DNA of 52,712 nt from Methanobacteriota archaeon. GTDB lineage: Archaea > Thermoplasmatota > Poseidoniia > Poseidoniales > Poseidoniaceae. The translations under genes were made by a program, and so were the position numbers. Positions 5,465-10,556 of the stretch are shown here, piece after piece (within the stretch, counting starts at the first letter, position 1; each line of letters begins with the position of its first letter). Where the stretch lies: contig PBMQ01000003.1 of the NCBI GenBank assembly GCA_002722615.1, positions 23,081 through 75,792 on the forward strand, in the 5' to 3' direction. Under the pieces are notes generated by a model that did not search any database, had not been told where the DNA came from, and saw nothing but the letters and a program-made list of their open reading frames with translations.

Positions 5465-5923
5465 TCATTTATTTTCCCACACACGAAATCCTTGAGTTGA
5501 TTGACGGTCAGCATTGACGTGAATCTGAATCTCTTCACCACGAATGAGAATAGCGTCCTCTGCCGTCAAACCCGGACACGATGCTTTGACTTGTTTCCAA
5601 GATCGCTGACTTCGAAGATTTTCTGCCCACCACGGGAACGCTTTGCATTGCTGTGGGCGAACTTCGTAGATGGTACATTGCTTGTTCTCATCAAGATAGA
5701 TACAGATTCCATCAGATTGATTAGAACGCAGGACGTATCGCCCATCGAGTGTCGTTGTACAATTTTTCTTGAGATATTGTGGTACGGTGAGGTTTGCATG
5801 TTGTGCCAATCGTTCCACATCATTGCGTGAGAGGTATACAATTCCGCCGGGTTCGTCGCAACAACGTCCACAATCAGGTTGGCAGGTAAACTGAACCCCT
5901 TCGGCCCACCAAGCGCCCCTCAT
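5465..5923 (-). CDS. YkgJ-family cysteine-cluster protein
   Basis: A 152-residue soluble protein of the YkgJ / putative zinc- or iron-chelating family (CxxxCxxCC family). Cysteines lie at C14-x3-C18-x2-C21-C22 near the N-terminus, with further conserved-type cysteines in the C-IY and RPQQCKAFPWW segments and in a late Cys-Pro-Gly motif. These probably bind a metal or an Fe-S cluster; the biochemical role of the family is not settled. Its ATG overlaps the stop codon of the upstream DnaA-like gene (ATGA at 5920-5923), so the two are translationally coupled. GGTGA lies six bases before the ATG. Confidence 0.85.
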   Translation of the reverse strand: MRGAWWAEGVQFTCQPDCGRCCDEPGGIVYLSRNDVERLAQHANLTVPQYLKKNCTTTLDGRYVLRSNQSDGICIYLDENKQCTIYEVRPQQCKAFPWWAENLRSQRSWKQVKASCPGLTAEDAILIRGEEIQIHVNADRQSTQGFRVWENK

Positions 5924-7746
5924 TCTTCCTCACCCATGAGACGAGTTGTTGGTTTGATCGTGGAAAGTCTTGCAACCTTAAGTTCCTCATCTTCTGCTTC
6001 AAATGCTTCCATAGAATCTTCGCTTACAAGGCCAAGTTCATGCTGAATGAATCGTAATTCATCGGTGATTGAAATTAGTTCATCCATATCTGCATGCTCT
6101 GTACGCTGGAGAAGATTTTCCATCATCAGTTCCAAATGCCGCAGTCGAAGTTCATCGCTTGCAACCATTCGTTCTCGTTCAGAAAGTGCCGCATCTATGG
6201 AGATGTCAATTCCAGCAAGGACGTCTGCAGCATGGCCAACATCTCTGTCGCCAAGATAACCCATTTGATGGGTCAAGTGTCGATCTCTCGAATCAACATC
6301 AAGAACAGTCGGCGCTTCAGGTGTGAGCTCATCCAGCGTGGTTTTGAGATGCATTTCGAGCATATCATTTGCTGAACTCAATTCTTCGGCGGTTACGATT
6401 GTTGGCTCCCAGTCGTCCTCCTGTTCCTCTAGAGCTGTTGTATGAAATTCGATACCTCCGACATCAACATCTGAATACACGACATCCGAGGCTCGTTGAA
6501 AGATGTCAGATGCAAGAGTAATCGATGATTTTGGCCTGCTCTCTTCTGGTTCCGAGAGGTCTGAGGTTTGACCTTGAAGCAAGAGCATAACATCTTCAGG
6601 ATCCAATAGTTTTCTTCCTGAATCATGTGCATCTTTCAGCACTGAGAGTGATGCTTCAACACCTCTCCAAGTGATGCCACTGTGGTTCAACACTTCCATG
6701 GTGTGCGCGTCCTCAAACAGCATTCCCATAAGCGAAGCCTGGTGCTTGATGTGCATGGCTAAACTCGCCTCAGAAACGGAATAAAGTGTTGAATTTGATG
6801 CTTGGTTCAACAATTGCCAAAGCCGAGATGAGGGCCAATCACGTGGATGCTCCAATGAGGTGCAAAGAACATGCACGCCGATGTTAAGTGCGTAATCAAC
6901 AAGATGGCCAATACTTTGAGCATGCTGTTCATTTCTAGCGATAAGATGCGCATCATCAATGAGGAGAAGGGAGGTAGAAGCGATACTTTCGTGCCAATCA
7001 GATGGAATCGAATCATTGCTTGCGAGTTCACTCGCTCGAAGAATTCTAACATCATCGTCATAGTAACGGAGTGCACTCTGTCCAGTCGCATGTAGCAAGT
7101 GACTTTTCCCAACTTCAGGAGACCCAATGATGATGTGAGGGTTATGTCGCCGTCCTAAATGATCAACAATCGACTCACAGGCCTTTGTTGCATGCTCATT
7201 TTCTGTATTGACATTCCATTGTTTGAAGGTCTTACGTTGAGTCATTGTAAGACGATGAGGCCAATTCGACTGGCTTGAGAGGATGGTTTGATGATGCACT
7301 CGATCTCCTTGAGAAGGAGGTGACAACTTCGAAGCCATCTGGTTAATCGCCATTCCTCGCTGTTGATCAAGAATGGAGGACCAGAGTGGTTGTCCGGATG
7401 ATGCGAATCCAATTTTATCGCCTAGGCTTCCTTCGGGAATTGATTCCTGAGAATTTCTTTCTCGAAGGTTTCTCAATCGAGAAATCGGGTGAGGTTGATC
7501 CAAATGAATCGATGGCTCATAGGTCGTTTCTTCTCCCAAAACCTCTTTTGCAATTGCTCTAAAAACTGGACGCTCATGAATGGGTTGAGATTGAATAAAT
7601 TCTCTCCCCTCATTTGTAGTCTTTGGTCTGTTCAGAAGTCGTCCGAGTTTGGAAGGATTATCCGATTCCACCTCGTTTTCAATCTCCAATCCGGCTTTGG
7701 CCTTTTGCAGGGCGATACGGAGACGATTGGTTCGTTCGATACTCAT
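5920..7746 (-). CDS. AAA+ ATPase resembling DnaA domain III (DnaA/Hda-like)
   Basis: 608 residues. The middle (about 170-390) reads like the ATPase core of bacterial DnaA. It has a lead-in with Phe, Trp, Asn and a helix before HNPHIII, Walker A GSPEVGKSH (208-216) followed by LLHATGQ (DnaA has HLLHAIGN), Walker B LLLIDDAH (260-267), a sensor-1-like LCTSLEHP (294-301), SRLW near 307, and RGVEASLSVL (361-370) where DnaA has its sensor-2 RELEGALN box. There is no DnaA-type C-terminal DNA-binding helix-turn-helix. Instead about 215 residues of acidic, helical, coiled-coil-prone sequence follow. The first 165 residues look disordered. It overlaps the DUF835 gene upstream and the YkgJ gene downstream by four bases each. 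A role in replication control, chromosome positioning or signalling is open. The AAA+ assignment is firm; the DnaA link is my inference from motif order. Confidence 0.82.
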   Translation of the reverse strand: MSIERTNRLRIALQKAKAGLEIENEVESDNPSKLGRLLNRPKTTNEGREFIQSQPIHERPVFRAIAKEVLGEETTYEPSIHLDQPHPISRLRNLRERNSQESIPEGSLGDKIGFASSGQPLWSSILDQQRGMAINQMASKLSPPSQGDRVHHQTILSSQSNWPHRLTMTQRKTFKQWNVNTENEHATKACESIVDHLGRRHNPHIIIGSPEVGKSHLLHATGQSALRYYDDDVRILRASELASNDSIPSDWHESIASTSLLLIDDAHLIARNEQHAQSIGHLVDYALNIGVHVLCTSLEHPRDWPSSRLWQLLNQASNSTLYSVSEASLAMHIKHQASLMGMLFEDAHTMEVLNHSGITWRGVEASLSVLKDAHDSGRKLLDPEDVMLLLQGQTSDLSEPEESRPKSSITLASDIFQRASDVVYSDVDVGGIEFHTTALEEQEDDWEPTIVTAEELSSANDMLEMHLKTTLDELTPEAPTVLDVDSRDRHLTHQMGYLGDRDVGHAADVLAGIDISIDAALSERERMVASDELRLRHLELMMENLLQRTEHADMDELISITDELRFIQHELGLVSEDSMEAFEAEDEELKVARLSTIKPTTRLMGEEE

Positions 7747-9527
7747 TGTTCTCCCCCCGAATCGGGTTCATCGGTTTGACGTTGAGATGCGTGTGCATGC
7801 TTTTCTGCCTGGTTTGATGGTTGGTTGCTGCTTTGTGATTGCGACTCAGTTTCCGAGCGAAGAGGCACACGTCCAGTTGCTTTGATAGGGGGGAATTCTG
7901 CGGGTTTTCTCCTCGCTGAAGTGGATACAGCTTGCTGAATTCGTTTGTGCGTCATGGTAGGCTTTTGCTCAGGAAACGCATGCTCCTTAGCAGGACGAAC
8001 TGGGACGAACGGTTTGGTCAAAGGCGATTCCTTCAAAGTTGGTAATGCAATGTTCCGTTGTGCAGCAACATCGATTGGTGTTCGCTGAACAGGTTTCGTT
8101 ACTTTCTTCCTTCTTCGAACCATTCGTTGAGGAATTCGAGGTCGTACAATTGGTTTGTTCTCCTCGATTTCAACGACTTGTTCCTGTTCGATCTCGGCTA
8201 TCTCACTTGAATCCTCTTCATCAGAATCGTTAACCCATGCCCTCATCTTTGAACGAAGATTATCGTCAACCTGCTGTGTACGATGTTCGACAGGTAATGG
8301 GATTTGTTGAACAGGAGCAGGTGTCTCAAGTTTAGGTGATAGGATAGGATCGCTCACATTTTGCTGAAGATGTTCCACTATCGCAGCGTCTGCCTCTGCA
8401 TCTGTTTCGATAAAGAATGGATGTTGTTGCAACAACTCAATATCGAGTAACCACGTTTGAATTTGATCACTTTCAATTCCAGTGAGTTCACGCTCCAAAC
8501 GTGAACGCTGCTGTCTTGAGAACGCTTCAAGATTTGATGTGATCAGGAGAACATTTCCGTTAATCCGTGTTTGGTCAACAATACTTCGTATCATCTCAAT
8601 CACACGCTGCTCTCCATGAATTCCTGAAAGGTATTCGATGCCTTCGATAACGAGGATGCTATTTTGATGCGTATCTGAGAATTCGTCAACGGTTCTCCGT
8701 ATTGTTTCAAGAGATGGTTCCAACGTTCGCTCATGTTGCGTTTCTGACAGCCATCTGTAGTGTTCCAAATCGAAATCGTAATTCGATTCCATTTGTGGTG
8801 GGGACTGGCGGGAAATAATGAGTACGGGTTGGTTCAATTCAGAGATTGTTCGTGCAAACATGAAGGAATGAACTGGATCAATTGCGTGCTCAAGCCATGC
8901 TTGACCTCGTTGCAGTACCGGGCCGCTTTGCATTCTCAAACGTGCTTCACTGCGTCGTCGTAACGCTTCAGGAACGCCAACGGATGGCTTTAATTCTGGA
9001 AGTCGGTCTTCACGGTCAAGTCTTCGAATAGGTGTACGAACTGTTGTCCACCATGCTTCATCACGATGATTTTCCTCGAGGTTGAGCAAACCCATGTTCG
9101 GATTTCTCGATACGACTTCCATGTACGATGCTTCAGTCATCTCATGAAGGCTCATGGTTGCATCCAATGCAGATGCATCGGATTCAATTTCAAGCAATGC
9201 TTCAATTCCAAACCGTGGCACTTCAGCTTGATGAAATGCGGCTGCAAGAGAGCCGTCGAAAATCAATAAGTGGCCAATTCGTTCTCCAACTTCGGGTATG
9301 TTGCGTTGAATTTGGATTGAACCATTCCGCTCTAATATTGCTAATTCTTGTGCAAGATGGCGGAGAACATCAACTCCTCCGCGTCTTGATTCAAGCACGT
9401 CCCCGGGTATAAAATTCAACACGATCTCCACCCCGCAATCACGAAGATTTTCTTTTATCTTTTGAACTGTGTGTCCCTCGAGGATAAATGAGAAGCATTT
9501 CAATGGTTGATGGTATGGGCCAACCAT
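7743..9527 (-). CDS. DUF835-domain protein with basic, disordered C-terminal tail
   Basis: 594 residues in three parts. The N-terminal part (about 8-140) has a Gly-His-Leu-Leu-Ile-Phe-Asp-Gly then Gly-Ile-Glu-Ala-Leu pattern, reminiscent of small archaeal DUF2226/DUF4388-type modules. The middle (about 205-350) matches DUF835: PVLIISR, a Trp-Leu-Ser segment, ILVIEGIEYLSG and a closing SRLEREL. The last 240 residues are low complexity, rich in Glu, Gln and Pro with a strongly basic patch (RRRKK near residue 458). DUF835 is largely archaeal and of unknown biochemistry, and in some proteins it sits beside signalling domains. Its ATG (9525-9527) shares two bases with the ATG of the divergent DUF309 gene, and its stop overlaps the start of the DnaA-like gene. 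Confidence 0.82.
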   Translation of the reverse strand: MVGPYHQPLKCFSFILEGHTVQKIKENLRDCGVEIVLNFIPGDVLESRRGGVDVLRHLAQELAILERNGSIQIQRNIPEVGERIGHLLIFDGSLAAAFHQAEVPRFGIEALLEIESDASALDATMSLHEMTEASYMEVVSRNPNMGLLNLEENHRDEAWWTTVRTPIRRLDREDRLPELKPSVGVPEALRRRSEARLRMQSGPVLQRGQAWLEHAIDPVHSFMFARTISELNQPVLIISRQSPPQMESNYDFDLEHYRWLSETQHERTLEPSLETIRRTVDEFSDTHQNSILVIEGIEYLSGIHGEQRVIEMIRSIVDQTRINGNVLLITSNLEAFSRQQRSRLERELTGIESDQIQTWLLDIELLQQHPFFIETDAEADAAIVEHLQQNVSDPILSPKLETPAPVQQIPLPVEHRTQQVDDNLRSKMRAWVNDSDEEDSSEIAEIEQEQVVEIEENKPIVRPRIPQRMVRRRKKVTKPVQRTPIDVAAQRNIALPTLKESPLTKPFVPVRPAKEHAFPEQKPTMTHKRIQQAVSTSARRKPAEFPPIKATGRVPLRSETESQSQSSNQPSNQAEKHAHASQRQTDEPDSGGEQ

Positions 9528-9918
9528 GAAGGCATCACCCCTTTCAGAGGATGAGGCGGTGTTGCTTGAACAAGGACGACTTGATTTCGATACAGGACGT
9601 TATTGGCACGCTCATGAGGCGTGGGAGGATTTATGGAATTCTCTGAAACGAAGGGATGCGGTTCAAACTGAGATCTTGCTCATTCAAGGTCTTATTCAAA
9701 CAGCAGCCCTTCTCTACAACCATCAACGAAAGAAAACGAGAGGAGTCACCAATCAGTGGGCTAAACTTGTCCCGAAATTGAGTTCGTGGGACCATGCTTG
9801 GGGTTTCAACATCAAACAACATCTGGCGAACATTTCGGTTTTTGTTGACGACGTTGATGTTTGGGAACAAACCTATGAATCCATTCGGTTGCCAGTCGTT
9901 GAAGAGGTGAACGAGTGA
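9526..9918 (+). CDS. DUF309 family protein
   Basis: A 130-residue all-helical protein of the DUF309 family, recognised by Gly-Arg-Tyr-Trp-His-Ala-His-Glu-Ala-Trp-Glu-Asp-Leu-Trp near the N-terminus and by LLIQGLIQTAALLYNH. The family is widespread in bacteria and archaea and has no established biochemical role; the conserved His and Glu suggest a metal or ligand site. The ATG at 9526 overlaps the start codon of the opposite-strand DUF835 gene, so any promoter must lie inside that gene. The stop overlaps the next gene start. Confidence 0.85.
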   Translation: MKASPLSEDEAVLLEQGRLDFDTGRYWHAHEAWEDLWNSLKRRDAVQTEILLIQGLIQTAALLYNHQRKKTRGVTNQWAKLVPKLSSWDHAWGFNIKQHLANISVFVDDVDVWEQTYESIRLPVVEEVNE

Positions 9919-10556
9919 TGCAGTTTGAACAAGGCTTGCCACAGCATTTCATCGTGTTTGCACAAACGCCCAAGGCGCAAGAACAATCCCGTCGCATCTT
10001 CCTTCAGTTTGGCGTTGCCCTTGCCCTTCCTACGATAGGAATACTTCTCGGAGGTGCTTCCATTCTTGGAGCATTCTTCTTGACTCTGTTTTTGATTATA
10101 CTTCTTATCGGCCTGCGTCAATGGCAACGTTGGCAAACGATACCATTTGCAGTGAACCCTTCTCATCCCATGATGGAATTGGACTCAATCAAAGAAGCAG
10201 AAGTAATGATTCGACTTCAAGACGGGCGATGGGCCGAAGCAGGTAACGATCGTTATCGACTCATCAGCGACGATTTACTTCCAGGATTCAACTTGGTTGC
10301 TCTCGATGATGATTACACTATTTTTGGATACTTCACCGATGAGAAGGTCTTGAATTCATACCTCCGCCGAGTCATGTCCCTACTCAACCAATCACTTGCA
10401 CTTCGTGATGCCCACAATCAGGTCGAGGACGATATGGAAGAGGCACGTTCTCGAGAGTCTATGGACTATGGATTACTCGATCGAGATTGGCCAGAAGAAT
10501 TGGAACTCGAGGATGCTGCTGGCCCAATCGCCAAAAAGTTGAGAGGGCAGGAATAG
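9915..10556 (+). CDS. Hypothetical membrane protein with two N-terminal helices
   Basis: 213 residues. A short cytoplasmic-looking lead is followed by two hydrophobic stretches (about residues 29-50 and 52-70) ending in RQWQRW, then a soluble, acidic domain. The C-terminus is helical and highly charged. No family recognised. I choose GTG 9915 over ATG 9918 because GGTGA (9906-9910) stands exactly four bases before it, the spacing used by several other genes here; either start overlaps the DUF309 stop codon, so the two genes are coupled. Confidence 0.7.
   Translation: MMQFEQGLPQHFIVFAQTPKAQEQSRRIFLQFGVALALPTIGILLGGASILGAFFLTLFLIILLIGLRQWQRWQTIPFAVNPSHPMMELDSIKEAEVMIRLQDGRWAEAGNDRYRLISDDLLPGFNLVALDDDYTIFGYFTDEKVLNSYLRRVMSLLNQSLALRDAHNQVEDDMEEARSRESMDYGLLDRDWPEELELEDAAGPIAKKLRGQE

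Follow-up and report, generated by a model that had tools for sequence, protein, structure and literature searches.

The locus analysed here raises the question of what a DnaA-like ATPase does in an archaeon, since DnaA is regarded as the bacterial initiator of replication and Orc1/Cdc6 as the archaeal one. The window, i.e. the whole stretch of 52,712 nucleotides that was analysed, carries such a gene, P0001, next to a partner gene, P0002 (Table 1). The original prediction, made from the DNA letters alone, had seen a DnaA domain III-like ATPase in an archaeal context, possibly captured from a bacterium, and had considered chromosome positioning, replication control, or signalling together with DUF835 as its role. 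The archaeal context is confirmed, as the genome is that of a Poseidoniales (MGII) archaeon, whose close relatives are Candidatus Poseidoniales.

Table 1. Features of the P0001 locus, in coordinates of the window.
Feature	Position	Strand	Basis or remarks
DnaA-like ATPase gene P0001	5920..7746	(-)	608 aa, open frame, ATG start
DnaA domain III-like AAA+ core, P0001 residues 160-390	6577..7269	(-)	Pfam/NCBIfam, AlphaFold, Foldseek
Walker A GSPEVGKS, P0001 residues 208-215	7102..7125	(-)	motif alignment
Walker B LLLIDD, P0001 residues 260-265	6952..6969	(-)	motif alignment
Box VII SSRLWQLL, P0001 residues 306-313	6808..6831	(-)	first arginine kept; arginine-finger position is L312
C-terminal acidic two-helix region, P0001 residues 500-590	5977..6249	(-)	AlphaFold; family alignment
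Partner gene P0002	7743..9527	(-)	594 aa; upstream of P0001, overlap ATGA (4 bp)
N-terminal domain (NTD) of P0002, residues 36-145	9093..9422	(-)	profile match to N-termini of one-chain proteins
DUF835 (inactive KaiC-like) region of P0002, residues 200-395	8343..8930	(-)	Pfam, Foldseek
CxxCxxCC metal-binding protein, third gene	5465..5923	(-)	PF03692, 44 bits; ATGA overlap with P0001; synteny
Divergent gene, 213 aa, hydrophobic stretch near the N-terminus	9915..10556	(+)	locus comparison

The ATPase core of P0001

P0001 scores 44.6 bits with the Pfam model Bac_DnaA (PF00308), whose cut-off is 23, and in the search of the host genome this model exceeds its cut-off at a single place only. The match is therefore not due to chance. 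In NCBIfam, P0001 scores 52.1 bits with DnaA and 48.3 bits with Hda, in matches spanning 140-190 residues, far under the equivalog cut-offs of both models (343.9 bits for DnaA, TIGR00362; 194.8 bits for Hda, TIGR03420). Matches to PDB sequences are DnaA throughout. A profile built from 17 MGII relatives, all of which match the DnaA model, finds DnaA chains with an E-value of 7e-27, Hda with 2e-7 and DnaC with 2e-5, and Orc1/Cdc6 is absent among the matches listed. P0001 likewise found no Orc1/Cdc6 (TIGR02928 or Orc1 structures) in the NCBIfam, PDB, Foldseek and MGII-profile searches. In the AlphaFold model, the core has pLDDT values mostly of 85-93. The 17 best PDB matches of this model in Foldseek are all DnaA or Hda, and the top match is DnaA domain III (8bv3, E 4e-13, TMt 0.83). 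The core belongs to the DnaA/Hda clade of AAA+ proteins, and the profile search and structural overlay that the original prediction had proposed as checks both bear it out. Homologues with open frames are present in many genomes.

The motifs quoted in the prediction are all found in P0001, including sensor 1 (LCTS, residues 294-297) and WRGVEASL (residues 360-367). Their order follows DnaA as claimed, but the likeness does not extend to the arginine finger, which is replaced by L312, or to the region of the initiator-specific motif (ISM), which is 7 residues shorter. The finger position, which from the alignment and general knowledge of DnaA we take to be equivalent to R285 of E. coli DnaA, is hydrophobic (V/L/A/F) in all 62 MGII sequences. 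In contrast, an arginine is found there in 18/19 sequences from other Thermoplasmatota, 15/18 DnaA and 4/4 Hda sequences. The ISM lies between Walker A and Walker B, where the median spacing is 50 residues in MGII and 57 in DnaA. Taken together, the missing finger and the short ISM suggest a protein that would bind ATP without DnaA-type intersubunit ATP sensing or grip on single-stranded DNA. The sensor-2 arginine is present in 40 of the 62 MGII sequences. At the Walker A lysine, 57 are unchanged, four have arginine and one has cysteine. As five sequences lack this lysine, ATP binding may even be dispensable in some MGII genera.

The absence of the DNA-binding helix-turn-helix was predicted correctly, as neither P0001 nor ten Thermoplasmatota relatives match Bac_DnaA_C (domain IV). 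The acidic helical tail that was said to take its place is also borne out: AlphaFold models two long helices (residues 500-550 and 554-590), the net charge of residues 500-608 is -18, and the region is conserved across the family alignment.

The partner gene and one-chain relatives

P0002 matches Pfam DUF835 (PF05763) with 64 bits, and 17/17 relatives match this model too. The domain has been described as an inactive KaiC which archaeal response regulators use for output (PMC5847659). The RecA-like part of the P0002 model matches KaiC and FlaH in Foldseek, and a P-loop motif is absent from all 17 relatives. The NTD is modelled with the topology beta-alpha-beta-beta-beta-alpha-beta. An assignment of the NTD to PATAN/DUF4388 was considered and dropped: topology and register are suggestive, but there is no Pfam match, and the hhalign probability is about 2% or less. 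DUF2226 was likewise discarded, having no match in the host genome.

A P0002 homologue lies directly upstream of the DnaA-like gene in nearly all MGII loci where the contig extends that far, and the two genes are probably translationally coupled. The gene after the DnaA-like gene is usually the CxxCxxCC gene, possibly a passenger. The divergent 213-aa gene has no Pfam match, and none of the neighbouring genes names an output.

The strongest evidence for a partnership comes from outside the MGII. When the whole phylum was searched, about 38 other Thermoplasmatota genomes, from many families, proved to carry the DnaA core, and most of the 20 loci that were read encode a single chain composed of NTD, DnaA core and DUF835. 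In 12 proteins, DnaA core and DUF835 share one chain and the N-terminus matches the MGII NTD (seven were checked with Pfam, the others with MGII profiles). The MGII NTD profile matches ten of them strongly (7e-17 to 1e-8) and two weakly (L228 and L216). Variants of this arrangement include a chain that joins DnaA core and DUF835 but has no NTD (L218), and a separate DUF835 gene adjoining the DnaA-like gene (L217). The three modules that MGII genomes distribute over two genes with a 4-bp overlap are thus held in one protein by relatives, and so P0001 and P0002, as judged from these sequences, very likely act together. The proposed link to DUF835 turns out to be much stronger than could be known from the window. 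Conversely, the capture of a bacterial gene as a local oddity does not agree with a family that covers many Thermoplasmatota families, although a bacterial donor of the DnaA core is plausible.

We consider it fairly probable that P0001 provides the ATPase in a module derived from DnaA and composed of NTD, DnaA core and DUF835, which works as a switch, for signalling or as a scaffold, rather than as an initiator. The DnaA core would bind ATP and assemble, or alter its conformation, in concert with DUF835 and the NTD; a partner or ligand would be sensed by the NTD; and the complex would act as a switch without melting an origin. The signalling setting is taken from the locus L222, in which the DnaA-like gene is followed by a gene for a KaiC-type ATPase and, two genes away, by one for a 7TM-sensor-DUF835 protein, and from KaiC-type neighbours in L220, L222 and L230 (Pfam-confirmed in the first two). 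Of the three roles that had been envisaged, signalling ranks best. The chances are about even that an archaeal signalling system arose in Thermoplasmatota when the core of a bacterial DnaA, lacking the origin-binding domain, joined inactive KaiC-like and sensor domains, and that it was later split into two genes in Poseidoniales and became an ATP-bound scaffold without arginine finger there.

Other arrangements were seen among Thermoplasmatota. In two proteins of about 1250-1300 aa (L213, L226), the DnaA core is combined with long repeats that resemble coiled coils and with zinc ribbons at the C-terminus. In L222 (6349-7953), the DnaA core is preceded by an Fn3-like part, probably outside the cell, and by what is probably a membrane helix.

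Distribution, phylogeny and a possible role in replication control

According to the profile search, the DnaA-like gene is present in 143/148 genomes of the host family, Poseidoniaceae, and in 30 genomes from a few genera of the second family, Thalassarchaeaceae, one of which is a contamination (family totals were counted by hand from the search results). Gene order around the gene is conserved throughout the order, and the P0001-P0002 pair is kept in both families. In ten Thalassarchaeaceae genomes from six genera, the block between the flanking genes is gone, i.e. the 213-aa gene, the DUF835 gene, the DnaA-like gene and the CxxCxxCC gene. One genome without the DnaA-like gene (G051) possibly has an assembly gap, because its citrate synthase is missing as well.

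Two database entries need care. The contaminating match, in a Thalassarchaeaceae bin (G144:C23, L231, 3093-4394), is a full-length bacterial DnaA with visible domain I and helix-turn-helix ends; it was rejected as a member of the archaeal family, and would mislead presence surveys. JAOMAZ010000023.1 (L083), titled Deltaproteobacteria bacterium AH-558-G13, contains an MGII-type DnaA-like protein that is very similar to those of L080 and L084, and is probably a mislabelled or mixed single-cell genome.

The DnaA-like gene coexists with orc1/cdc6, as a survey of both genes, also suggested in the original prediction, makes clear. Orc1/Cdc6 scores over the cut-off in 60/60 MGII genomes, with or without the DnaA-like gene, and is found in 36/38 other Thermoplasmatota genomes with a DnaA-like core, among them all 26 near-complete ones. 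In three genomes (G513:C9, G494:C27 and G478:C11), a distance of about 46-48 kb separates the one-chain gene from orc1/cdc6, which may reflect shared synteny only.

In the tree of the core, a long stem leads to the MGII clade, which does not group with the other Thermoplasmatota, but such a grouping is not rejected either (p-AU 0.27 and 0.20), and the junction of the family with bacterial DnaA is left unplaced. A grouping of MGII with Hda is also not rejected (p-AU 0.42).

The comparison with Hda bears on the likeliest alternative, namely that P0001 is an accessory factor akin to Hda or DnaC, which binds Orc1/Cdc6, MCM or PCNA and tunes initiation. Hda and P0001 are both DnaA cores without domain IV, and both have a shortened ISM region, which fits this role, and the tree does not reject their grouping. 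Hda, however, has only about 230 aa and no DUF835 partner, it keeps the finger arginine that MGII proteins have lost, and DnaA clearly beats it in profile and PDB scores. Moreover, several Thalassarchaeaceae genera lack the gene while Orc1/Cdc6 is present in all, and the partner domains are of signalling type. On balance, we regard an accessory role in initiation as unlikely, if still worth considering.

A possible role in motility or polarity

A slightly less likely alternative, and one that we doubt, is that P0001 serves motility or polarity by positioning or regulating the archaellum or pili. Both the module and the archaellum are near-universal in Poseidoniaceae, and bacterial DnaA-like proteins without domain IV adjoin DUF4388 genes (in one Gemmatimonadota case also a gene for a Ras/Arf-type GTPase) or, in Elusimicrobia, lie near a PilT-type ATPase. 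The match between the NTD and DUF4388 is not significant, however, and the link to the archaellum is not supported within Thalassarchaeaceae. FlaJ and archaellin searches across the order show that module and archaellum correlate when the two families are compared, but not when the genera of Thalassarchaeaceae are: the module occurs without FlaJ in g17 and g22, and FlaJ occurs without the module in g14, and Fisher's test over the 10 genera gives p 0.5. PF04659 (FlaD/E) matches in no MGII genome searched, and is hence useless as a marker. An archaellum locus with FlaJ, FlaI and FlaH-like genes was seen in L168 (G000:C15).

That P0001 is a replication initiator acting at an origin, in place of or beside Orc1/Cdc6, is scarcely credible despite the DnaA ancestry of its ATPase core, since the DNA-binding domain is missing, origin melting in the manner of DnaA is hard to reconcile with a lost arginine finger and a shortened ISM, whole genera lack the gene, and the presence of Orc1/Cdc6 in every MGII genome examined and every near-complete relative speaks against a replacement.

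Comparison with known systems

P0001 shares with bacterial DnaA domain III the order of AAA+ motifs and the fold, with Walker A and B, sensor 1 and, in most sequences, the sensor-2 arginine. It differs in having neither domain I nor domain IV, apart from the altered finger and ISM region, and in belonging to a family that is fused to or paired with NTD and DUF835. The DUF835 of P0002 is the same domain as in archaeal signalling proteins, but the architectures reported for it combine REC or PAS with DUF835 (PMC5847659), and a fusion to a DnaA core was not found described.

Our search of the open-access literature found nothing on DnaA with Poseidoniales or on MglA with DUF4388, and DUF835 in one paper only. 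While the DnaA core itself is already known, we found no account in this literature of its architecture here, of the gene split or of its occurrence throughout the phylum alongside Orc1/Cdc6. Archaeal viruses also have a group called 'DnaA-like', the SSV arCOG07960 (PMC4158269).

A DnaA-core family that exists across many Thermoplasmatota families beside Orc1/Cdc6, and is tied to a KaiC-type domain, would show a second, non-initiator career of this core in archaea. For the hypothetical gene pair, which nearly all Poseidoniaceae carry, the one-chain relatives also supply a partner that can be tested. A DnaA annotation in an archaeal genome need then indicate neither an initiator nor contamination, although the contamination in G144 is real.

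Gemmatimonadota proteins with two tandem DnaA cores resemble P0001 in having no helix-turn-helix and in standing beside a gene unrelated to replication, but differ in the duplication of the core and in the partner genes, and hhalign of DUF4388 to the MGII NTD is not significant. In three such loci (L103, L107 and L123), the gene directly after the tandem cores encodes a DUF4388-TPR protein, and L123 has a gene for an Arf/Ras-like GTPase immediately upstream. Two Elusimicrobia-type loci (L098 and L115) have a DnaA-core protein without helix-turn-helix near a PilT-like T2SSE ATPase.
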